From assembly GCF_016924755.1 (NCBI RefSeq), contig NZ_JAFFJX010000001.1, forward strand, positions 62,001 to 126,000: a stretch of 64,000 nucleotides of DNA. Reading direction: 5' to 3'. Within the stretch, counting starts at the first letter, position 1, and every line of letters starts with the position of its first letter. Shown here piece by piece: positions 3,081 to 58,143 of the stretch. The DNA comes from Longitalea arenae. Its GTDB lineage: Bacteria; Bacteroidota; Bacteroidia; Chitinophagales; Chitinophagaceae. The position numbers were made by a program, and so were the translations under genes. The notes under the pieces are model-generated. The model saw only the letters and a program-made list of their open reading frames with translations. It was not told where the DNA came from and ran no database searches.

Positions 3081-3530
3081 ATGCATAATCTTAACATTCC
3101 TCCCATTCAATTTCATTTCTTAGCGACTGTATCTTTTTCTCAACGTACCCTTGTTAAGGAAGTTATCCGCGATCTCTTCAGGAAGGAGAAGACCAAACTG
3201 GAACAACTGCGATACATATTCTGTTCAGATGAATACCTATTAGAGATCAATAAACAGCACCTGCAGCACAACTATTTTACCGACATCATCACGTTTGATC
3301 TATCCGAAAAACCAAATGCTGTTATCGGCGAAATATATATAAGTGTTGATAGGGTTAAGGATAATGCTCAAACGTATAAGGTCCCTGTCAAGCAGGAACT
3401 TTTAAGAGTGATCTTTCATGGCGCCCTGCATTTATGTGGTTATAAGGACAAAACCAAAAAGGAAGAAGAGCTCATGCGGAAGGCGGAGGACAAATATCTA
3501 CAGTACTACAGCTCGAAAGCAAATAATTGA
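3081..3530 (+). CDS. ybeY: Endoribonuclease YbeY (16S rRNA maturation, ribosome quality control)
   Basis: 149 residues. The metalloprotease-like signature HGALHLCGYKD contains H113 and H117 (family HGxLHLxGYDH). The position that holds the third zinc-binding His in proteobacterial YbeY is Asp123 here (GYKDK). I recall GYKDK as usual in Bacteroidota, so this is probably a lineage variant and not a defect. YbeY trims the 16S rRNA 3' end and helps destroy defective 70S ribosomes. In related genomes ybeY often lies just before mnmG. Here the two genes keep that order but are separated by the 4.1 kb non-coding parS/satellite block. Confidence 0.93.
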   Translation: MHNLNIPPIQFHFLATVSFSQRTLVKEVIRDLFRKEKTKLEQLRYIFCSDEYLLEINKQHLQHNYFTDIITFDLSEKPNAVIGEIYISVDRVKDNAQTYKVPVKQELLRVIFHGALHLCGYKDKTKKEEELMRKAEDKYLQYYSSKANN

Positions 3531-4180
3531 TAAGCCAGATAACAGGGACTTGAGTGAGGCTGGCCGTTCCGGCCGGATTAATTGAAACACAAAAATCAGC
3601 ACACCACTCGAAACGTGTTAGCTCATCATTTGGCATGTAAGCAGTCCGCATTCCACTAGCTACCAGGCTGTTGGTAAAGGGTTTAAGTTGCTGGTTCAAC
3701 ATCTTGCCTGTCTGACCGGTCGAGCCTCCCCGGCTTATTATTTATTTTGATTTTTTCGGACAGCGAGGGGTCACCCATCAATGGTTGCAATATGGAAATT
3801 GAACAGTATGAACGCTTACAAGATGTTTAATACGAACGGCGGACAAGCGACCAATGTTCAACCGTTGCAGGCAGGAACCACGTTGAATGCCTCTGTCCTC
3901 TCCATTTCCAGCCAACTTCCTTATCGTAGCTTATGCGACTTCCCCAGCTTGCCCTACAAAATGATCTAATCTACCGGTGCAAGGCCAGAAGCTGCGGTGC
4001 GCCAGACCGCATGATACATCTCCCTGCGTCTCATGGATACTGGCCGCTTTCGGATAGCAAATAATACAGGAATACCTTTCCCCTATTGATTGATCTGCCC
4101 AATGCACCGGGTTACTTTCCGTGTATTTATACATAAAATTGTACAGTTGTAGCTATCTGTAGGCCGCCATTTCCACAGTA

Positions 4181-4196
4181 TGTTCCACGTGGAACG
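4181..4196. promoter_or_regulatory. parS: parS centromere site 1
   Basis: TGTTCCACGTGGAACG contains a perfect 14 bp palindrome, GTTCCACGTGGAAC. This is one of the well-known variants of the bacterial parS consensus TGTTTCACGTGAAACA. ParB-CTP clamps load at parS and spread to organise the origin region for segregation. The site lies in the non-coding block just before the repeat array and is matched by a second site 2.3 kb to the right. Confidence 0.88.
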
Positions 4197-4559
4197 ATGG
4201 ACTCAACACGATTAGGTAAACGGCTTTACTGAATTTCGATGATCCTATGGCTTGAATAGTACTCTAATAAAAATACCCTCATAAATCCCCGATTAGCGAA
4301 TTGAACCGAAAGCGCCTCCTCAGCCCAAGTGAAACAAAGAAGTCAGTGCACTTTAAGGTAACTGCACATGAGATTAAGTCTCTTCCGTTGGCCGGAAGCA
4401 GTATAGATAGCCGGTACTCGCTGGACTCACTAGCCTTCCAGGGAATGTTAATGCTTACTCCCTAAGCGAAATAACCTTTGACTATGAGTCTTGGCTGCGC
4501 TACGTGCATGGGGATATCAAGATAGAGATTAACGGGAGGTAGGCAAACCGGGGAAGATA

Positions 4560-5620
4560 TTCCGAGAAGTTGGCTCCATGTAAATGGATATGGTGAATTG
4601 GGGAACTTAGGAAGATAGGTGAACCCTCGTGAAAAGGCATACCGCAGCTTAGCCCCAGTGCGGCAATATGAGTTGGAAACCTGAAAGGTGCCTAATCCTT
4701 AGGAAAAGTATACTCCTAACCAGCCCCGCTATAGAGATTAGGTGATTCGGGAACAGGGGAAAGTAGGTTAAAATCCCCTGGTAAAGGGGTTAGCCTCCAG
4801 TGCGTAAATATGACGGAAATCTGGAAGGGTAGCTTAACCCTCGTGAAAGGTATACACTAATCAGCCCTGCCCGAGGGACTTGGTGATTTTAAACTTGGTA
4901 AGGTGGGTTTGACCTCTGAAAAAGCATACTGTAGGTTACACCCAGTGCGGGAATATGACTTGGAAACCTGGAAAGGTGCTCAATCCGTGGGAAAGGTATA
5001 CTCCTAACCAGCTTCGCTAAAGAGATAAGGAGATTCGGGAACATGGGAAAGTAGGTTAAATCTCTGGGAAAGGGGGGTTAGCCTCCAGAGCGTGAATATT
5101 GATGGAAACCTGGAAAGGTTGCTTAACCCTCGTGAAAGGTATACACCAATCAGCCCCGCTAAAAGGAATGGTGATTTGGTACCTGAGAAGGCAGGTTAAA
5201 CCTCTCGAAAAGGTATACCGTAGATTAGCCTCAAGTGAAGGAAGATGATTGGAACCTGCGAGAGCCAGCCTTAACCCTCTCGAAAAGGTATACTCCTAAC
5301 AGCGCGGCTGAAGGGATATGGTGACTTGGTACCTGAGAAGGCAGATTAAAACTCTGGAAAAGGCATAACGATTAGCCTCTAGTGAGAGAAGATGATTTGA
5401 ACACCTGGAAAGGTAGGCTTAACCGTCAGGGAAAAGTATACTCCAAATCAGCTTCCGCAAAATGGTCAAAGTGTTTTAGAAAGTTATTGAGCCAGCCCAA
5501 ACGCGCTGAGAAAGGTTCATACCAGGTTTACCCCTGCTACAGGCTTTAAGTGGATGGAAAACTTGAATTCTGGACGTCTGTTGTAAAGTGAGTTCAATCT
5601 TTTTCAAAAGCATTCTGACT
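4560..5620 (+). repeat. Satellite-like higher-order tandem repeat between the two parS sites
   Basis: A degenerate monomer of about 74 bp recurs about 14 times. The landmark AAAGGTATAC or a close variant occurs near 4634, 4705, 4783, 4845, 4919, 4992, 5068, 5135, 5208, 5283, 5358, 5432, 5511 and 5606. Monomers alternate: type A continues into TTAGCCTCCAGTG-like sequence, type B into CTAACCAGCCCCGCT-like sequence, giving dimers of about 148 bp (starts near 4721, 4862, 5009, 5151, 5300 and 5449). B monomers again alternate between TATACTCCTAAC and TATACACCAAT, so a tetramer period of about 287 bp is visible over 4634-5208. Copies decay at both edges. No coding frame spans the array. Some units contain small palindromes (AGGTTAAACCT, GGTATACC). 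Confidence 0.85.
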
Positions 5621-6527
5621 GTATCCGCCCCAGGCTCCTTTCTCTTTCAACTCCAAGAATAGGAAGAAGCCTCTATCCCTTGGTCCACTTAAAGAACTCG
5701 ATCCCTGCCAGGAAACCAAAACCTTTGGCTAACAGCCTTTACGGGGCTTTGTGCACCAGGATAACCGCTGAACAGTCAAGTTGTAGGAGGTAAATTAAAG
5801 AATAATTACTCCAAGGCAGTCCCCGGTTAAGAGAAAGCGATTGGAGACACATGGACTTAGAGTATCCTCGAGGAAAGAGATAGCCAGGAATCAAAGTGAT
5901 TTGGAAGCTCAGGCAGATAGGGCAATCCGTCCTGGCAGAACCTGCAGGAAAGGCCTATCTGAGGGTTTAGATAATTTATAAGCTAGCCAGATAGCTAAAC
6001 CCGATTGAAAGGTATATCCCAAGCTCACCCGGGCTAAAAGGTTGAAGTGTTTACAACTTTAGGGCGCCAGGCCACGTTATGGAGTATGAGGTAGGTAAGC
6101 CAAACCAGCCACAATTGAATAAGCACACAGTTTACCCCTGATCCTTAGAATTTTGCCACCGCCAAAACAACGTTGGATATTAGAAAAGCTTTGAAGGGGA
6201 GTAGAGAAGGGCACAATTCCCGCAAAGAATGACAAAATATCTATCAAACACATAACTAGCAAACTGAGCAGTACAATATCCCTTAATCTTACTGAACCAA
6301 ACGCCACCCATAAGGTTCAGTTCATTTAACCGCATAACGCTAACACGAAATCTTCTTATTTACCATAAACCGAGATTGCCACGAATGATCGTAGCTCCTT
6401 AATAAAGACGTCTCTTTAATCAAGTGCATCATACTCCTACAATCTCGCGAAGTGAACACATATAGGGCAAATACCTGGTAAAAGAGATTCAACATCGCGG
6501 CACGCTTAAGCAGATTGGAACACTCAT

Positions 6528-6543
6528 GGTTCCACGTGGAACA
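6528..6543. promoter_or_regulatory. parS: parS centromere site 2
   Basis: GGTTCCACGTGGAACA has the same perfect 14 bp core (GTTCCACGTGGAAC) as the site at 4181. The two cores are 2347 bp apart and bracket the satellite-like array. No other CCACGTGG core was found in the window. Confidence 0.88.
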
Positions 6544-7611
6544 TTCAGTTTCCAGAGATGCGGGTCTCACAACCGGGTCAGATCAAACAGATGAGACAAT
6601 AACGGTAAGAAGGATTATTCCATTAAAGATCTGATTCGGCTAAGCAAATTATTCGGGTGTTGCTTTATAACATCAAAATAAAGGGGAAAGGCATTAAACT
6701 AGCCAGGTTCAAACGTTGTAAATAAACACAAGTCGTCTCACATTCTCCCAATATGCAACCGGATTTGTTCGATTTGCCCACCGGACATTCCTAAACCCGA
6801 AAACATCTGATTCTTGAAAGGTGGATAGACTGCCTATAGTTTAATGACTCAACAACCTCGACCATTGGATTAACACAATTATTAAATCAACTTGCCTACC
6901 AGGATCCGACAAAAACCCATCCATTTGAGCTCTGCACCTGGAAGGAACTTATACGACACACCGGTCCGAAGTTTCCACTCATCAGGAAGCTGCCAACATT
7001 CAATTCCTTCGCTCAACCTTCAACAAATTCACAACTGTTTGAAGCCTTCATTCACCAATTGAACCCAGCCACTCAGCTTAACGACAAAATAGACCTGGTC
7101 CATGGGACAACAAATAATTTTAATGAGGTACACCTATTTTCATGACGCACCGACAGTTCGATGCAGTAACCCATGTGTTTGATGGTGGGTACCGCCAGAT
7201 TCATGAGCTAACCAATCGATCTGGTAATGTAAACCATCAGGATTATACCCTATGTGATTAGGTTAATGACAACCCACTGAGGTAATTACAACTTCAATAA
7301 GATTTATGACAGCTCCCATCAAACCGATGACCAACCTGAACGGTTAGGAACCTCCGTCATTGGGTTGGTCAGACGCCCCGGTTAAAGTAAATCACAAGTC
7401 CACTCACATTACTGACAGCACCGGCCAAAGAAAAGCCTCCGCCTTCCGAAGCATAATATTTCCCCCGCCCGGACGAATGACTTTCCAAAAGGCAACCCAT
7501 TTCTATCAGCAGAACGATCTTCCAGCTGTCATGCTTACTTTCACTCCTTATTTACCCTTACCATAACTTTTCTCTTTTTACCCCTTCCCGTCCTTCCTTT
7601 AATTTTGCACC

Positions 7612-9474
7612 ATGTTTCCAGAATACGATATTATAGTTGTAGGGGCAGGTCATGCGGGTTGCGAAGCAGCCGCAGCAGCCGCCAACCTTGGTTCAAAGGT
7701 TCTGCTAGTAACCATGAATATGCAAACCATCGCCCAAATGAGTTGTAACCCGGCCATGGGTGGTATTGCTAAAGGACAGATCGTGCGTGAGATCGATGCC
7801 ATGGGCGGATACTCCGGCATCGTCACTGACACAAGCATGATCCAGTTTCGCATGCTCAACCTTTCCAAAGGCCCGGCCATGTGGAGCCCCCGCGCACAAA
7901 ATGACCGTATGTTATTTGCCGCCACCTGGAGAGAATTATTAGAACGGACTCCTAATGTTGACTTCTATCAGGATATGGTTCGCTCCCTGATCATTAAAGA
8001 TGGCCGTGCCTGTGGTGTCGTTACCGGCCTCGGTCATGAAATAAGATCCAAAGCAGTTGTTCTTACTAACGGTACCTTCCTGAATGGTATCATTCACATC
8101 GGCGAAAAGCAATTCGGCGGCGGCCGCGTAGCTGAAAAAGCAGCCACCGGTATCACCGAACAACTGGTTGAACTCGGCTTTGAAAGTGACCGCCTTAAAA
8201 CCGGTACACCTCCCCGCATCGATGGTCGCAGCCTCGACTATTCAAAAATGGAAGAACAAAAAGGCGACGATGAGATCGTAGGTTTCTCTTTCACCGATAC
8301 TAAAAAACCGGTCGAACAAAGAAGCTGCTGGATCACTTATACCAGCCAGAAAGTACATGATATTTTAAAAACTGGTTTCGACAGGAGTCCTATGTATGCC
8401 GGTAGAATTGAAGGAACCGGTCCAAGATATTGCCCCAGCATTGAAGACAAGATCAACCGCTTTGCTGAACGCGAAAGACACCAGCTTTTTGTGGAACCCG
8501 AGGGCTGGAACACGGTTGAGATCTATGTCAATGGCTTTTCCACTTCCCTTCCCGAAGAAGTACAGATCGCTGCATTGCGGCAGGTAGCGGGATTTGAAAA
8601 CGTTCGCGTCTTTCGCCCCGGTTATGCCATCGAATACGACTATTTTCCACCAACACAATTAACTCACTCGCTGGAAACAAAACTGATCCAAAATCTATTT
8701 TTCGCCGGACAGATCAACGGTACCACCGGCTACGAAGAAGCCGCCTGCCAGGGTTTGATGGCAGGCATCAATGCGCATCAAAAAGCCAAGGAATTAGACG
8801 CGGTGGTTTTGAAAAGAAGTGATGCCTATATCGGGGTGCTTATCGATGATCTTATCAGCAAAGGAACCGAAGAACCTTACCGCATGTTCACCAGCCGCGC
8901 CGAATTCAGAACCATCCTTCGCCAGGATAACGCGGATCTTCGGCTGACCGAATTAAGCTACCGGCTTGGCCTCGCCTCCCAGGAGAGAATGGACAAAGTG
9001 ATCAGCAAAAAAGAAGGTGTTGAAAAAATAAAAGATATTCTTAAAGATATTTCGCTGGAGCCAGGTGAAGCAGATTCCTTCCTGGCTGAAAATAATTCTG
9101 CTCCATTACCCCAAAAACAAAAAGCCCTCCAGGTTTTGTTGCGTCCGAATATCACCCTCGAAGCCATGATCAAGGGTCTGCCAAAAATCAAACAGGCGCT
9201 CACCGGTTTTACTGAAGAGGTCATTGAACAAGCCGACATCCAGATCAAATACAATGTATATATAGAAAAAGAAAAAGAACTCGTAAAACGAATGAATCAA
9301 CTGGAAGATCTGTTGATCCCGGATAATTTCGATTACGATCGCATCAATTCTCTATCGGCTGAAGCTATGCAGAAATTCAAAAAGATCAAACCGCGTACGC
9401 TGGGTCAGGCCAGCCGGATCAGTGGAGTAAATCCAAGCGATGTGCAAATATTAATGGTATATATGGGAAGATAA
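7612..9474 (+). CDS. mnmG: tRNA uridine-5-carboxymethylaminomethyl modification enzyme, FAD subunit
   Basis: 620 residues, full family length. The FAD-binding motif VGAGHAGCEAA is at residues 10-20, followed by the MnmG-typical MSCNPAMGGIAKGQIVREID and RMLNLSKGPAMWSPRAQND segments and the C-terminal helical domain. With MnmE it installs the cmnm5 group on U34 of several tRNAs. mnmG (gidA) is classically located next to bacterial origins, which fits the nearby parS sites. A TAATTTTG element ends 4 bp before the ATG, so if it is the -7 box the transcript would be essentially leaderless. The start is fixed by the N-terminal FAD motif. Confidence 0.97.
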   Translation: MFPEYDIIVVGAGHAGCEAAAAAANLGSKVLLVTMNMQTIAQMSCNPAMGGIAKGQIVREIDAMGGYSGIVTDTSMIQFRMLNLSKGPAMWSPRAQNDRMLFAATWRELLERTPNVDFYQDMVRSLIIKDGRACGVVTGLGHEIRSKAVVLTNGTFLNGIIHIGEKQFGGGRVAEKAATGITEQLVELGFESDRLKTGTPPRIDGRSLDYSKMEEQKGDDEIVGFSFTDTKKPVEQRSCWITYTSQKVHDILKTGFDRSPMYAGRIEGTGPRYCPSIEDKINRFAERERHQLFVEPEGWNTVEIYVNGFSTSLPEEVQIAALRQVAGFENVRVFRPGYAIEYDYFPPTQLTHSLETKLIQNLFFAGQINGTTGYEEAACQGLMAGINAHQKAKELDAVVLKRSDAYIGVLIDDLISKGTEEPYRMFTSRAEFRTILRQDNADLRLTELSYRLGLASQERMDKVISKKEGVEKIKDILKDISLEPGEADSFLAENNSAPLPQKQKALQVLLRPNITLEAMIKGLPKIKQALTGFTEEVIEQADIQIKYNVYIEKEKELVKRMNQLEDLLIPDNFDYDRINSLSAEAMQKFKKIKPRTLGQASRISGVNPSDVQILMVYMGR

Positions 9475-12300: not shown

Positions 12301-12833
12301 ATATTAATTCTATTTTTTTATAAATAACCTATTATTATTACGGCTGTGGATTCGTGGATAAAATGAAAGCCGCGAAATTTGGTAAAGTTACAACAACCTG
12401 GTTATCCACGTTTTTCCACTTTCTATCAACATTAAACAATTGTTACGGGGCAAGGGTTCTACGCAGTTTTCCACTCTGGTGGAATAAAAAGCGCCGGGAA
12501 AAATAGAACGGTGTCGGAACATAAAAAGTCTGTGAATGGAGGTCTAATAACTAAGGGTTTGTATACAGCGGGGTCTAGGGAAAACTATTCACCGAAACTT
12601 ATAGGCCAAGTATCCACTAAAATCGATGTGCAAAAACCGGGGTTACCCACATAATTTCCGGGTTATGCCCTTTTGATGTTAGCACTGTTTTCACGACACT
12701 GTTCCACGGAAAGATTGCCAGCAGTACGCAGCTGTAATATCTGAAGTGTCGTTCACCTTAATTCAGTGGTTGTTCACATCCCTGTGAACTGTTAAAACCT
12801 TTACTCGATGCTGGTTTTGAGTGGTTTTCCACA
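12301..12833. other. oriC: Candidate chromosomal replication origin (oriC)
   Basis: This gene-free region between the divergent genes nadA and ppiD has an AT-rich stretch (12301-12340). It is followed by many DnaA-box-like 9-mers: CGTGGATAA (12353-12361, inverse of TTATCCACG), TTATCCACG (12402-12410), TTTTCCACT (12412-12420 and 12467-12475), a TATCCACTA-type box near 12610, TTACCCACA (12643-12651), TTGTTCACA (12770-12778) and TTTTCCACA (12825-12833). parS-like half sites (TGTTTTCACG, TGTTCCACGG) occur near 12690-12710. The neighbourhood (mnmG, dnaN, parS) supports the call. The exact unwinding site is not determined. Confidence 0.6.
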
Positions 12834-18474: not shown

Positions 18475-18480
18475 TCGGTT

Positions 18481-18757
18481 GCTGATTTCTGATTTTGAGA
18501 TTTTATTTAATCGCAGGCTTCGCGATCATCTTCGATCCTCGTATTTTACCGATATCTCAAATGCATTATAGCGATTTCTGATTTCTTGATTTCGGGATTT
18601 TATTTAATCGCAGGCTTCGCGATCATCTTCGATCCTCGTATTTTACCAACATCTCAAATGCATTATAGCGATTGCTGATTTCTGATTTTGAGATTTAGAG
18701 ATTTAAAATCCCAAAATCTCTAAATCCCAAAATCGCAAATCTCGAAATCAGAAATCT
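18481..18757. repeat. 97 bp direct repeat plus 8 bp-unit inverted array between convergent genes
   Basis: Two copies of a 97 bp unit (18481-18577 and 18578-18674) contain the near-identical block TTTAATCGCAGGCTTCGCGA. A partial third copy then runs into an array of 8 bp units, first of the GATTTTGA type and then of the inverse AAATCTCA type, ending about 20 bp before the convergent CDS end. The array can fold into a long hairpin and probably acts as a bidirectional terminator. Confidence 0.8.
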
Positions 18758-19723
18758 CTAAATTCTTCTTCCTACCCGTTCGAGCAGGGCTTTTGTTTTT
18801 TTGATGCCTTCTTCTTCACTTAATTTTTCGCCTTCATATTCAATGCCCATATAACCTTTGAAGCCGGCGTCTTTTACCACTTTCAGCATTTTCACATAGT
18901 CTGTTTCAATGCAGTTGCCCTGTTCATCAAAATCATGGGCTTTGGCGCTTACGCCTTTGGCAAAGGGCATCATCTCGGCAACTCCTTTATAGCGGTCGTA
19001 TTCTTCTATACATTTCGCGCCCCATAACGCGCCGCCTTCCCGTTTGATACAGAAATTACCAAAATCGGGCAGCGTGCCTACGTTTTTCCGGTTAACGCCT
19101 TTCATTACATTGGCCAGCCACTCACCATTGGAGGTATAACCACCATGATTTTCTACAATGACATTGATGCCGGTTTTGGCGGCATATTCGCCCAATTGGC
19201 TTAAGCCTTCAATCGCGGCTTTTTGTACCTCTTCGGCGCTGCCTTGTCCGTACGCATTTACCCGGATGGTGGTACAGCCCAGGAATTTGGCAGCATCCAC
19301 CCACTTGTAATGATTTTCCACGGCCTGCTTTCTTTTGGCAGCATCCAGGTCGCCCAGGTCACCTTCACCATCGCACATGATCAGGTGATTTTTAACCCCA
19401 TTGTCTTTACAGCGTTTCAATAGCTCTGCCAGGTATTTTTCATCTTTTGCCTTGTCTTTGAAAAACTGGTTCACATATTCCACCACGCTGATGCCAAAAG
19501 TATTTTTGGCCATTCCTGGAAAATCGAGGTTGTCCATTTCTTTTGCCCATAACTTTTTATGCAACGACCATTGGGCAAGGGAAATCGTAAAAAATAATGG
19601 TTTGGTAGCTGGTTCAATATCCTCCTGGTCAGGAGAAATAAAAGATAAACCTGCGGAAGCAGCGCCATAACTGGCTGCCAGTCCGCCAATTTGTTTTAAG
19701 AAATGTCGGCGATTCGAGGGCAT
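18758..19723 (-). CDS. Sugar phosphate isomerase/epimerase (xylose-isomerase-like TIM barrel), Tat exported
   Basis: 321 residues. The N-terminus [18 protein letters not shown] is a twin-arginine leader, so periplasmic location is likely. The body is an AP-endonuclease-2/xylose-isomerase-like TIM barrel with metal-site segments such as [35 protein letters not shown] and [10 protein letters not shown] near the end. Such exported isomerases are abundant in Bacteroidota and act on sugars or inositols, and the substrate is unknown. The gene is convergent with cydB and has no obvious operon partner. Confidence 0.88.
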
Positions 19724-54540: not shown

Positions 54541-55452
54541 ATGTTACTAAAAAAGAATATACCGATTGGCTATGTGTTTGGAAAAGTTAAGGTAGAACTG
54601 ATCTTTATACTGTTGTATAGTTTGTCTATTGCCATTATACATGAACTGTTCCTGGTGGTGCCCATCAGTATACCATTGGCGGTGCCGGCTATATTAGGTA
54701 CGGTCATTTCATTACTGCTGGGTTTCAGAAGTAACCAGGCATATGATCGCTGGTGGGAGGCACGGCAAGTATGGGGCGCCATTGTGAACGATTCGCGTAC
54801 CCTTGCACGGCAGATACTCAGTTTTACTGAAAGTCAATATGAAGAAGATGAAGTGCATCAACTGCGGCAACGCATGATCCGCAGGCAGATCGCGTGGAAT
54901 TACGCCCTGGGACAAAGCCTTCGCCGTTTGAATGCAACGGCCGGACTGGAGAAATTCCTCAGCCGTAAAGACCTGGAACATTGCAGCCGCTTCAGTAATG
55001 TACCTATGGCTTTGATCGATCAGCAGGCGCGTGACATGCGCCGTGCCCTGGAAGAGGGGTATATAAACCGTTACCAGCAGATCGAGATCGACCGTACCCT
55101 CACCCGTTTTTGCGATAACATGGGAAAATGTGAACGCATAAAGAATACCGTATTCCCGGCTACATATAGTTTATATATCCATTTTTCATTGATGTTATTT
55201 ATCAGCATGCTTCCTTTTGGCGTGATCGATTATTTCGGTTTCCTGGAAGTGCCTTTGGTAGTAGCCATCAGCGCTTGTTTCTTACTGATAGAAAAGATGG
55301 CGATCCACTTACAGGATCCATTTGAGAATAAACCAACTGATACCCCGATGACGGCCATTGCAAGGACGATAGAAAAAGATCTGAAGCAACTGCTGCACGA
55401 TCAGGATCTGCCCGAAGACAAGCGCCAGGAGAATTATTATTATATAATGTAA
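54541..55452 (+). CDS. Bestrophin-family chloride channel-like membrane protein
   Basis: 303 residues from the ATG at 54541. About four transmembrane helices with the bestrophin/UPF0187 signatures (LLGFRSNQAYDRWWEARQVW and ARQIL near residue 80, IYPSTYSLYIHF-like VFPATYSLYIHF near 205), then a helical C-terminal cytosolic part with LEVPLVVAISACFLLIEKMA and LQDPFENKPTDTPM. Bacterial bestrophins are pentameric anion or cation channels. It is monocistronic, 98 bp after the stress-protein gene. Confidence 0.93.
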   Translation: MLLKKNIPIGYVFGKVKVELIFILLYSLSIAIIHELFLVVPISIPLAVPAILGTVISLLLGFRSNQAYDRWWEARQVWGAIVNDSRTLARQILSFTESQYEEDEVHQLRQRMIRRQIAWNYALGQSLRRLNATAGLEKFLSRKDLEHCSRFSNVPMALIDQQARDMRRALEEGYINRYQQIEIDRTLTRFCDNMGKCERIKNTVFPATYSLYIHFSLMLFISMLPFGVIDYFGFLEVPLVVAISACFLLIEKMAIHLQDPFENKPTDTPMTAIARTIEKDLKQLLHDQDLPEDKRQENYYYIM

Positions 55453-55531
55453 GCTGAGAGTAAAATTGAGTTTGTTGTTTTGTAAAAAAAGAAAATATTC
55501 ATCGATGTTTTTTTGTTATCAATATTCTTAC

Positions 55532-55539
55532 TAGCTTTG
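55532..55539 (+). promoter_or_regulatory. -7 element of the leader-peptide/tRNA unit
   Basis: TAGCTTTG matches TAnnTTTG. A T-run ending in TTTG (55512-55515) lies 16 bp upstream. Transcription would start close to the ATG of the leader peptide at 55544. Confidence 0.65.
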
Positions 55540-55543
55540 CTCT

Positions 55544-55636
55544 ATGATTCGCACTACCTCATATTTACTGTCATTATCACTCAGTTGCTATAGCAACGAG
55601 CTGAAGGGCAGTTATGTTCCTGCGAATAAGAGTTAA
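55544..55636 (+). CDS. Putative leader peptide in front of a tRNA cluster
   Basis: 30 codons: MIRTTSYLLSLSLSCYSNEL followed by KGSYVPANKS. Codons 6-17 are almost only Ser (TCA, AGT, AGC), Leu (TTA, CTG, CTC) and Tyr (TAT). Within the frame lie a 14 bp palindrome, GTTGCTATAGCAAC (55584-55597), and CTGAAGGGC (55601-55609), which is exactly complementary to the left arm of the terminator hairpin 55 nt downstream. This is the design of ribosome-mediated attenuation. The downstream genes are tRNAs that include Ser(GCU) and Tyr(GUA), which read AGT/AGC and TAT. Confidence 0.6.
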   Translation: MIRTTSYLLSLSLSCYSNELKGSYVPANKS

Positions 55637-55661
55637 GAAATAATTACACTTATATACGCAT

Positions 55662-55694
55662 AAGCCCTTCAGGTAAACACTTGAAGGGCTTTTT
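55662..55694 (+). terminator. Attenuator terminator before the tRNA genes
   Basis: AAGCCCTTCA and TTGAAGGGCTT form a 10 bp stem followed by TTTTGTTTTT, ending right at the first tRNA (55701). CTGAAGGGC inside the leader peptide frame can pair with GCCCTTCAG of the left arm as an antiterminator. Confidence 0.85.
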
Positions 55695-55700
55695 GTTTTT

Positions 55701-55773
55701 AGCCCCTTAGCCCAATGGGAGAGGCTGCTGTCTTAGAAACAGTATAGTGTGAGTTCGAGTCTCACAGGGGCTA
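55701..55773 (+). tRNA. tRNA with anticodon UAG (class I, short variable loop)
   Basis: 73 nt. Acceptor AGCCCCT/AGGGGCT with discriminator A, D-arm GCCC...GGC, anticodon stem GCTGT/ACAGT with loop CTTAGAA (anticodon TAG), a 5-nt variable loop, and T-arm GTGAG-TTCGAGT-CTCAC. Anticodon UAG reads Leu CUA, but bacterial tRNA-Leu normally has a long variable arm, which this gene lacks. Identity is therefore uncertain. No CCA is encoded. Confidence 0.75.
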
Positions 55774-55806
55774 CTGCTATGCCTGGCCGTGTGGTTTCAA
55801 CAGGAA

Positions 55807-55897
55807 GGAGAGTAGGCAGATATTGGTTTGCTGCGGCATCCTGCTAAGATGTTTCTCATTTAACGATGGGATGAAGGTTCGATTCCTTTGCTCTCCG
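55807..55897 (+). tRNA. tRNA-Ser(GCU)
   Basis: 91 nt. Acceptor GGAGAGT/GCTCTCC (one G-U), D-stem GCAG/CTGC, anticodon stem GCATC/GATGT with loop CTGCTAA (anticodon GCT), long variable arm TCTCAT...ATGGGA typical of class II, T-arm GAAGG-TTCGATT-CCTTT, discriminator G as required for serine. It reads AGT and AGC. Confidence 0.9.
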
Positions 55898-55905
55898 CAA
55901 GAAAT

Positions 55906-55932
55906 GCTGCATCCGCAACTGGCGGATACAGC
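55906..55932. repeat. CCGCC/GGCGG-type hairpin between tRNA genes
   Basis: GCTGCATCCGC and GCGGATACAGC pair around AACTG, possibly a processing or pausing hairpin. It is related in sequence to the TATCCGCC-GGCGGA hairpins around tRNA-Phe at 58.4-58.9 kb. Confidence 0.55.
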
Positions 55933-55954
55933 GTAAAACAAATTGATATTTCAT

Positions 55955-56040
55955 GGGGCGTCGGTAACGATGGCGGCGTTACACCAGACTGTAAATCTGG
56001 TACATCCGAAACACAGGGAGTTCGAATCTCTCACGCCCTA
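55955..56040 (+). tRNA. tRNA-Tyr(GUA)
   Basis: 86 nt. Acceptor GGGGCGT/ACGCCCT with discriminator A, D-stem GTAA/TTAC, anticodon stem CCAGA/TCTGG with loop CTGTAAA (anticodon GTA), extended variable arm of about 14 nt, T-arm GGGAG-TTCGAAT-CTCTC. All features fit bacterial tRNA-Tyr. Confidence 0.92.
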
Positions 56041-56113
56041 CTTTTTAAATGATGCTAATAGTAGCTTATTACTTGCGGAACATCGCTTTGCTGAAGCTGC
56101 TTGAGTAATCAAC

Positions 56114-56145
56114 AAAAAGGCGATTACAACTATCGTTAAATCGCC
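56114..56145 (-). terminator. Terminator of the beta-helix gene
   Basis: Read leftward, GGCGATTT and AATCGCC pair around a 12-nt loop and are followed by TTTTTGTTG, 64 bp after the CDS stop. It may also end the tRNA transcript on the other strand. Confidence 0.6.
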
Positions 56146-56208
56146 AGGCAGTTTATTTCAGCGTATGGATATGGCCTATTTAAGCAACTGCTTTCTATTA
56201 GCCATGCA

Positions 56209-58143
56209 TTATTTTGTAAAGCGGGTGCTTTGTGACCTGCCGGTTTTATGATCTATCAGTTTGAGAATATAAGCCCCTTGAGAGAGCTTGCTTACGTTCA
56301 GCCTCACCTGGCTGCCGGCTTCCTGTAACCTTTCTTTTTTTATAACCATACCGGCCATGTTAAGCAGCACCAACTCTTTATCAAGAAGATCATTGCCGGG
56401 TGCTTTGACGAATACATAATCGCGGGCAGGGTTGGGGGAAGCAAGTATTTGATCTGGGGAAGCACTGGTCTTTATACTGATGATCCTGGAATACAGGGCT
56501 GCATTACCGGGTACAACTGCTTTGATACGGTAATGCTGTATTTCATTGGTGACCTCGTTATCAGTGAACTGGTAGATAACGGATGCTGCACCGGAAGTCG
56601 TTTTATGCGGGATCTTCGCAATGGTCTTAAAATTATTTCCTCCGGTGTTCTTTTCAATGTCAAAGTGATCGGCGGAAGCACTGGTAGTTTCCCATTCTAT
56701 CATGTTTCCATGAGCGTTTTTCCAGCCGCGGCAGGATAAGATCTTCAGAGGAAGAACAATGGCAATACTTTCTGCAATGCCGGCATCGGGAGCGCCGCCC
56801 AAGGGAACCGCCTGGCCAAAGAAGTCTTTATGAATGCCCGTGTGCTGGCCGAAATTGATGGCCGTAGCCGTTGGTTGCAGGTTGTAATCCCATAACAAAG
56901 GATTGCCTGAAGAACTGATGTCTGTGAACAATGCCAGGGCGGGATTGAGATGTTGTTCTGTAGCATCCAGGGTATAACCAAGGCTGCCCCCGTTCATGTG
57001 GAACAGGTTATTTTGGTGGATGAGCTGAGGTCCGTTAAAGGGCTGTGTTACCGGATCGGTAATGTTGGAAGAAGTTTTGATCCAGAAAATATTGTTCTTC
57101 ATGGTGAGCACATTCGCAACCGAAGGTGTTGACATAATGCCTATTAGGTTCCTGATATCTGCAATGCGGGGCGCATGGGTTTCTACAATATTGTTATTGA
57201 AGAATTCCAGATTGCGAACATCGAGGCTATATACATGGCTAGAGTTGATCCAGAATACATGGCCATTGTTGACTAATAAATTGTAACCAACAAGATTATT
57301 GAGCGCTTGTCCGCCAGAACCGCTGCCGAATTCCATAAATCCCAGGTTTTCACTGGCGGTATTGTATAATATCTTGTTGTTGCATACCGGGCCATACATT
57401 TCGATGGCACCGCCATCGATCTGGTAATCATAGCTGTTGCTCCAGCAATCATGAATTTGATTGTGGGTGATGGTATTATCTGAACCGCCAACCATTATGC
57501 CCATGGCGCCGAAATCATCCCACATGATATCGGGTGTATTGAGGATCATCCGCAAATTGCGGATGGAGCAATCGGTGATTGTATTATGACTTCCGCCATC
57601 GATACATACGCCCGAGCCTAAGCGCGATATGGTAAGGTTTTTAATAAGGTTATTCGAACCGTTATTGCCAGCTCCCTTATAGATGTACACCCCATAACCA
57701 ACATTGGCGGTTACATGGTGGTCGGTTTCAGGAATAGTAACGTCTGTAAGTTCAAAACCATCAATCACTATATGATTCACCTGGTTCAGCCGGATGATAA
57801 CGCGGTTGTAGACCAGGGGCTCGGTGTTATTGACCATGTTGTATTGGAAAACGGGGGCATGACCTGTGCCATAGGGCATGAACACGATAGGAGCGCCGGC
57901 GCTGCCAGAGCTGTTGATAGAAAGTGTGCCCGTGTATTGCTGTCCACGTTTGAAAAAAACGGTGTCACCAGGGGAGAAGTAATTAATGGCCCAGGGAATA
58001 TCATCAATAGATCTCCAGGGATTTGTAAATGTTCCCTGGTTGGCACCAGCGGAAGAGGGGTCTACAAAATAATTTGTAGCAGAGGCGGTCATACTGACTG
58101 CTACAAATAAACAGACAAGGGTACAGGATATTACGGATTTCAT
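56209..58143 (-). CDS. Secreted right-handed beta-helix protein with T9SS sorting domain
   Basis: 644 residues. Signal peptide at 1-22 (LVCLFVAVSMTASA). A right-handed parallel beta-helix (pectate-lyase-like, about 60-400) shows repeated N-x-I/L-x2-N turns (NNLIKNLTISRLGS, NTITDCSIRNLRM, NTITHNQIHDCWS). A fibronectin-like region follows, and the C-terminal about 75 residues form the type IX secretion sorting domain (SPNPARDYVFVKAPG, then LSQGAYILKLIDHKTG and a basic end FTK). The protein is secreted to the surface or medium, probably to bind or cleave a polysaccharide. No catalytic residues are evident. Confidence 0.88.
   Translation of the reverse strand: MKSVISCTLVCLFVAVSMTASATNYFVDPSSAGANQGTFTNPWRSIDDIPWAINYFSPGDTVFFKRGQQYTGTLSINSSGSAGAPIVFMPYGTGHAPVFQYNMVNNTEPLVYNRVIIRLNQVNHIVIDGFELTDVTIPETDHHVTANVGYGVYIYKGAGNNGSNNLIKNLTISRLGSGVCIDGGSHNTITDCSIRNLRMILNTPDIMWDDFGAMGIMVGGSDNTITHNQIHDCWSNSYDYQIDGGAIEMYGPVCNNKILYNTASENLGFMEFGSGSGGQALNNLVGYNLLVNNGHVFWINSSHVYSLDVRNLEFFNNNIVETHAPRIADIRNLIGIMSTPSVANVLTMKNNIFWIKTSSNITDPVTQPFNGPQLIHQNNLFHMNGGSLGYTLDATEQHLNPALALFTDISSSGNPLLWDYNLQPTATAINFGQHTGIHKDFFGQAVPLGGAPDAGIAESIAIVLPLKILSCRGWKNAHGNMIEWETTSASADHFDIEKNTGGNNFKTIAKIPHKTTSGAASVIYQFTDNEVTNEIQHYRIKAVVPGNAALYSRIISIKTSASPDQILASPNPARDYVFVKAPGNDLLDKELVLLNMAGMVIKKERLQEAGSQVRLNVSKLSQGAYILKLIDHKTGRSQSTRFTK

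Follow-up and report, generated by a model that had tools for sequence, protein, structure and literature searches.

Satellite-like DNA turnover in the spacer of a candidate ParABS centromere in Longitalea arenae and its relatives

Chromosomal ParABS centromeres consist of parS palindromes beside the replication origin in genomes that encode parA and parB. The F plasmid carries at sopC a partition site with tandem ParB boxes. In eukaryotes, alpha-satellite centromeres are composed of nested tandem repeats at the segregation locus, where the sequence is replaced while the locus stays. ParB spreading is described as CTP-dependent sliding that is blocked by bound proteins (excerpts of PMC7053999 and PMC5815017). 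It can be stopped by RNA polymerase or bound proteins (PMC7053999, in part), and passage of ParB past roadblocks is described in vitro (PMC9242446, in part). In gut bacteria, parS clusters have been linked to the origin by Hi-C, and dnaA is not always an origin marker (excerpt of PMC10197239).

The locus described here, the gap between ybeY and mnmG in Longitalea arenae, shares with chromosomal ParABS centromeres the parS palindromes beside the origin and the encoded parA and parB, but differs from them by a kilobase-scale, promoter-poor and rapidly replaced spacer with satellite-like arrays. Whereas the parS sites of Caulobacter are located inside genes (PMC5815017, in part), those of our locus lie in or around a non-coding spacer. 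Tandem repeats at a partition site are also found in sopC; there, however, each unit contains a ParB site, while the units here are devoid of parS. The likeness to alpha-satellite lies in nested repeats at a segregation locus whose sequence is replaced between species. In contrast to alpha-satellite, the array spans about 1 kb, its tetramer level has about two copies, some species have no array at all, and short fixed motifs specify the site. Long-unit, non-coding and species-particular tandem repeats are described for other prokaryotes in PMC6749651 and PMC8161180; the statement in the initial annotation that no bacterial counterpart is known was therefore too broad with regard to the non-coding satellites of PMC6749651. 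Word searches of these two papers found 'centromer' in neither and 'parS' not in PMC8161180. Among the matches listed for the open-licence literature, no paper dealt with chromosomal parS loci whose DNA is satellite-like or changes fast. More interesting than the array itself is the wider pattern of a centromeric spacer that is poor in promoters and rapidly replaced.

The ybeY-mnmG gap and the replication origin

The window (the whole stretch of DNA analysed, 64,000 nucleotides) is part of the 7.28-Mb draft genome of L. arenae. The locus comprises the following features.

3081–3530, + strand: ybeY, left border of the spacer (Pfam YbeY, E 4e-28)
3531–7611: candidate centromeric spacer, 4,081 bp, non-coding here (ORF scan; no alignment to the nearest relative, G071, over 3509–7553)
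4181–4196: parS1 (TGTTCCACGTGGAACG), parS-like palindrome with one mismatch
6528–6543: parS2 (GGTTCCACGTGGAACA), parS-like palindrome with one mismatch
7544–7611, + strand: conserved mnmG leader with a -7 promoter box (TAATTTTG), from gap alignments
7612–9474, + strand: mnmG/gidA, right border of the spacer (Pfam GIDA, E 2e-162)
12353–12833: probable oriC, four DnaA-box-like sites with one mismatch each, the densest cluster in the window

The two parS-like palindromes compare with 0.02 expected by chance in the window, and they are the only one-mismatch sites in the genome; allowing two mismatches adds two sites elsewhere, compared with three for a reversed control pattern. The genome contains one match to ParB_N (E 1.5e-32), and the ORF adjoining this parB gene is ParA-like as judged by eye. 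The -7 box consensus for Bacteroidota is given in an excerpt of PMC6847099.

The position of the origin was derived from the GC skew of the congener G253 and of G330 and G114. In G253, a single contig of 9,033,684 bases, the skew changes sign at 7.83–7.85 Mb with mnmG at 7.832 Mb (40 samples, of which two near-zero ones had the wrong sign). The skew near the locus is similar in G330 and G114. In the window, the cluster of DnaA-box-like sites is located about 5 kb from the spacer and about 4.7 kb past the mnmG start, between nadA and a SurA-like/PPIase gene, and has a matching place in G071 and G253. Its assignment as oriC is only probable, since G253 contains a second cluster of four such sites 32 kb away and the total of DnaA boxes across the window is at chance level. 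DnaA boxes with up to one mismatch are absent from the gap of the window, and an oriC inside the array was rejected for this reason.

With parS clustered above chance, the origin nearby and both ParA and ParB encoded, the gap is best read from its sequence as a candidate chromosomal ParABS centromere, at which ParB is predicted to bind and spread.

The nested tandem array

Between parS1 and parS2, inside the ybeY-mnmG gap, lies a tandem array with three levels of repetition.

4558–5581, + strand: tandem array, 14 hand-cut segments of about 74 bp (TRF, autocorrelation, identity matrix)
4631–5206, + strand: 288-bp tetramer in two copies (4631–4917 and 4918–5206; lag-4 identities 0.82, 0.88, 0.83 and 0.75)
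5133–5429, + strand: dimer of about 150 bp, a separate duplication (lag-2 identities 0.81 and 0.75; TRF period 150)

The initial annotation had described this region as a satellite with periods of 74, 148 and 287 bp. The nested periodicity is real: autocorrelation of 4520–5640 gave peaks at 289 (109), 145 (66) and 74 (32), compared with a maximum of 20 across 100 dinucleotide shuffles. TRF reported units of 288 bp (x1.9, 4625–5177), 150 bp (x2.2, 5122–5452) and 75 bp (x3.1, 5135–5367). About 14 monomers had been proposed. We cut fourteen segments of 68–79 bp by hand at an anchor box; the unit of about 74 bp stands, but only twelve to thirteen monomers (4571–5506) were confirmed. The core twelve cover 4631–5508 and the outer two are weak. 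A profile of the core twelve yielded one additional match at 4571–4628 (E 0.002), and traces at 5807–6042 were at chance level (E 0.5–0.65).

Within the core twelve, neighbouring monomers have a mean identity of 0.57 (lag 1), and the means for lags 2, 3 and 4 are 0.68, 0.59 and 0.75 (shuffled monomer pairs, n = 200: 0.49, sd 0.03). The higher value at lag 2 than at lag 1 agrees with the proposed A-B alternation of the monomers. Lag-4 identity is the highest, as the proposed tetrameric unit of about 287 bp implies, but the period is 288–289 bp and this level comprises only about two copies; the dimer duplication sits to the right of them. The outermost segments are the most diverged, in agreement with the degeneration towards the edges noted earlier.

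The array was also rightly described as non-coding and placed between two parS sites (4181 and 6528). The longest ORF in the gap measures 76 amino acids and three small ORFs have no Pfam match, so a decayed repeat-protein gene was rejected here as well. The parS scan of the window found no parS in the array units, and the genome contains no copies of the array elsewhere. These data support a nested tandem repeat that does not code for protein and that arose through one tandem duplication after another. Another ORF-free stretch of the window (18479–18763) contains a 97-bp repeat (2.3 copies, 91% match) beside short AAATC-rich repeats.

Turnover and composition of the spacer

We compared ten genomes of the genus, one per species, so that turnover is observed between species. 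Nine gaps including that of the window are complete; L023 (1,076 bases, without a full gap) was left out. All nine are bordered on the left by ybeY and retain a length of 2.7–4.5 kb. The parS core is conserved in each of them, with two sites per gap in eight and three in one. The first parS is found 3–4 bp past ybeY in seven gaps, at 651 in the window's gap and at 1,359 in that of L021. The strongest 7–9-mers shared by the nine gaps belong to parS, followed by the mnmG leader. BLAST between gaps recovered the same elements: about 65 bp before mnmG, which align in eight of nine gaps (the exception is L024), and parS with short flanks. The 9-mer TAATTTTGC of the leader occurs in all nine. The remainder of the spacers gave a few weak matches of 29–96 bp, one of them inside an ORF common to L021 and L024.

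These two ORFs (L021:5937–6731 and L024:6052–6822, minus strand, 264 and 256 amino acids) lie between parS sites and are related, fast-evolving (35% identity) and without a Pfam match. With an ORF of 256–264 amino acids in two of nine cases, the spacer is thus not always gene-free.

Most of the window aligns to its nearest relative, G071, at about 85% identity (matching stretches mostly 81–89%), with long runs that extend through most of the intergenic DNA, and 3509–7553 gave no alignment. Among 20 other ORF-free stretches of at least 150 bp, 13 aligned to G071 fully, six partially and one (55450–56211) not at all. The spacer therefore changes faster than nearly all of its neighbours. A family search with 3900–7100 returned, apart from the window itself, a single 40-bp match (E 1e-4, G278), which corresponds to about 6646–6685 and lies outside the array.

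Tandem arrays are present in six of the nine gaps, each with its own sequence and period: besides the window, L016 (128 and 183 bp), L017 (106 bp), L018 (167 bp), L019 (193 bp) and L021 (213 bp). L020, L022 and L024 have no tandem array above threshold. Arrays of different species have no sequence in common apart from a single 22-bp match, which links arrays from two genera other than this one. In 59 other gaps no relative of the window monomer was found beyond one 33-bp match (E 0.007); the repeat is thus not a family that the lineage shares. The gap table covers gaps of at least 300 bp with ybeY. Arrays cover 3,829 of 31,891 bases in the genus spacers (six of nine spacers), compared with 1,327 of the 43,439 bases of control ORF-free runs at least 400 bp long (four of 73 runs). 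Control DNA of the genus (1,194,500 bp) has a longest ORF-free run of 1,615 bp, which is exceeded inside six of the nine spacers (L129, L130 and L185 hold the locus and were left out of this control).

The -7 box TAnnTTTG is depleted about four-fold: the nine spacers contain 8 boxes, none on the + strand, compared with 30.2 ± 5.1 expected from a second-order model (rerun 30.9). The last 100 bp of each spacer, where the mnmG promoter lies, were left out of these counts. Without the two ORF-bearing spacers the count is 6 versus 22.5 expected. In 35 spacers elsewhere (all of 51 without an ORF of at least 130 amino acids) it is 15 versus 36.7 (0.41), compared with observed/expected ratios of 0.65 in ORF-covered DNA, 1.02 in ORF-free control DNA and 0.83 in convergent gaps. 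TTGACA, TATAAT and TTTG are near expectation in the genus spacers, and the full two-box promoter (2 seen, 1.6 expected) is too rare for a judgement. Scans for sigma-70-type promoters and terminators remained at shuffle level.

All nine spacers of the genus have an AT skew between +0.11 and +0.24; control runs of G253 gave means of -0.010 and -0.016 (50 and 49 runs, maximum 0.22). In most species it increases along the gap from about 0 beside ybeY to 0.2–0.5 nearer mnmG. Its sign follows the side of the origin, being positive in 9/9 spacers of this genus (g1) and in 3/3 of g16, and negative in 6/6 of g7, a genus with the origin on the opposite side (origin side placed from one genome in each of the three genera). 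An interpretation as a sign of transcription was dropped on these grounds; the skew points to replication-linked mutation in weakly constrained DNA. The GC skew of the spacers is less regular (L159).

Beyond the genus, 57 of 80 named Bacteroidota loci have a parS-like site with at most two mismatches in the 1.3 kb upstream of mnmG, although some of these loci end before 1.3 kb; 8 of 740 control windows contain such a site. The exact 14-mer parS core is present in 114 of 294 family genomes and absent from 180; of the 40 genomes among the matches listed, 23 also have a listed mnmG position, and in 23 of 23 the core lies at most 3.5 kb upstream of mnmG, as judged by eye. In many other Bacteroidota the gap that contains parS measures about 100 bp, and in many other genera a shorter gap contains at least two parS sites. 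In 49 family members, chosen by kinship and parS content and not at random, the gap ranges from 63 bp to 4.5 kb and tends to be longer in larger genomes (Spearman 0.65, n = 49; 0.59 over 17 genera).

Tandem arrays of unrelated sequence occur at this locus in several genera (L161, L164, L165 and L182). The array of L182 (G051) is nested as well, with periods of 106, 203 and 309 bp and about 8 copies at gap positions 72–946, adjoining parS; its autocorrelation is higher at the three-unit lag (307) than at the two-unit lag (212). The gap upstream of mnmG in Flavobacterium sp. MC2016-06 (L083) is of the sopC type, with a 117-bp unit that contains a parS-like site in each copy and 11 such sites altogether. 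Large arrays with a 153-bp period (13.7 and 5.6 copies) are located several kb upstream of mnmG in L040 and L048.

A proposed role for the spacer

On balance we favour, with a modest degree of confidence, the reading that the locus is a ParABS centromere that stays long, empty and poor in promoters, while tandem duplication and decay replace its sequence. ParB clamps would load at parS and then slide across the spacer. Being kept long and nearly without promoters and genes, the spacer would hold RNA polymerase and bound proteins out of the way of ParB. Selection would thus act on length, emptiness and parS, leaving the base sequence unselected. As an unconstrained stretch near the origin, the spacer would gain tandem duplications, stacked here as nested arrays of 74, 148 and 288 bp, and their subsequent decay would leave every species either with a satellite of its own or without one. 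What we infer from these patterns is that turnover works through duplication and decay and, perhaps, that the spacer is a sliding track. A long promoter-poor stretch at parS would suit ParB sliding; the ORF in two of nine spacers, the gaps of about 100 bp in many relatives, the passage of ParB past roadblocks in vitro and the second ORF-free stretch that fails to align to G071 (55450–56211) are counterpoints. Possibly, though we put this more tentatively, such a locus is a bacterial 'regional' centromere, with fixed loading sites and, around them, a spacer that works through being long and empty and not through its sequence.

According to a neutral view, which we consider rather unlikely, the gap is free to become long, with no function attached to its length, and the arrays and the skew are purely mutational. 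The missing sequence constraint, the skew that follows the origin side and the range of 63 bp to 4.5 kb in the family agree with neutral expansion, but the nine genus gaps all stay within 2.7–4.5 kb despite their replaced sequence, -7 boxes are rarer than in either convergent gaps or DNA covered by ORFs, and the first parS keeps its place 3–4 bp past ybeY in 7/9.

It is improbable that the satellite itself is functional, with its unit of about 74 bp binding a segregation or nucleoid protein through an AAAGGYATA box in an iteron-like manner. The + strand of the window's gap contains this box 8 times, where 0.03 are expected, and L016 contains the shorter AAGGYATA 4 times, yet AAGGYATA is found on neither strand in five of the eight other genus gaps, three of the nine gaps have no array, and the 59 other gaps contain no relative of the monomer beyond the 33-bp match. 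A motif general to the arrays of different species was likewise rejected, since parS and the mnmG leader stand out and AAAGGYATA is not general. What persists across the genus is parS together with a long spacer poor in promoters. The claim of a satellite at a centromere is supported in part: a nested repeat is present at an origin-side ParABS locus and satellite-like turnover at the centromere holds, but a function of the window's repeat as the working part is not supported, given a tetramer of about two copies, arrays missing in 3/9 genus gaps and no counterpart in the 8 other genus gaps or in 51 further gaps.

Origins often contain repeats, and the array lies where the GC skew changes sign in the complete congener, but a role as part of the replication origin or as the source of a non-coding RNA is highly improbable in view of the absence of DnaA boxes (at most one mismatch) from the window's gap, fold z-scores of -0.03 and 0.26, and a sole Rfam match far below its threshold; the array as an RNA was rejected for lack of a fold signal and of an Rfam match over threshold.

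The fast evolution of eukaryotic centromeres is often attributed to competition in female meiosis. If the reading as a 'regional' centromere is true, the locus would present, in the absence of meiosis, the eukaryotic centromere paradox of a function that persists although the satellite DNA beneath it is quickly replaced. A bacterial centromere that carries satellites and exchanges its DNA from one species to the next would demonstrate that meiotic drive is not required for such turnover, and the locus would serve as a natural test of ParB's need for a promoter-free track.
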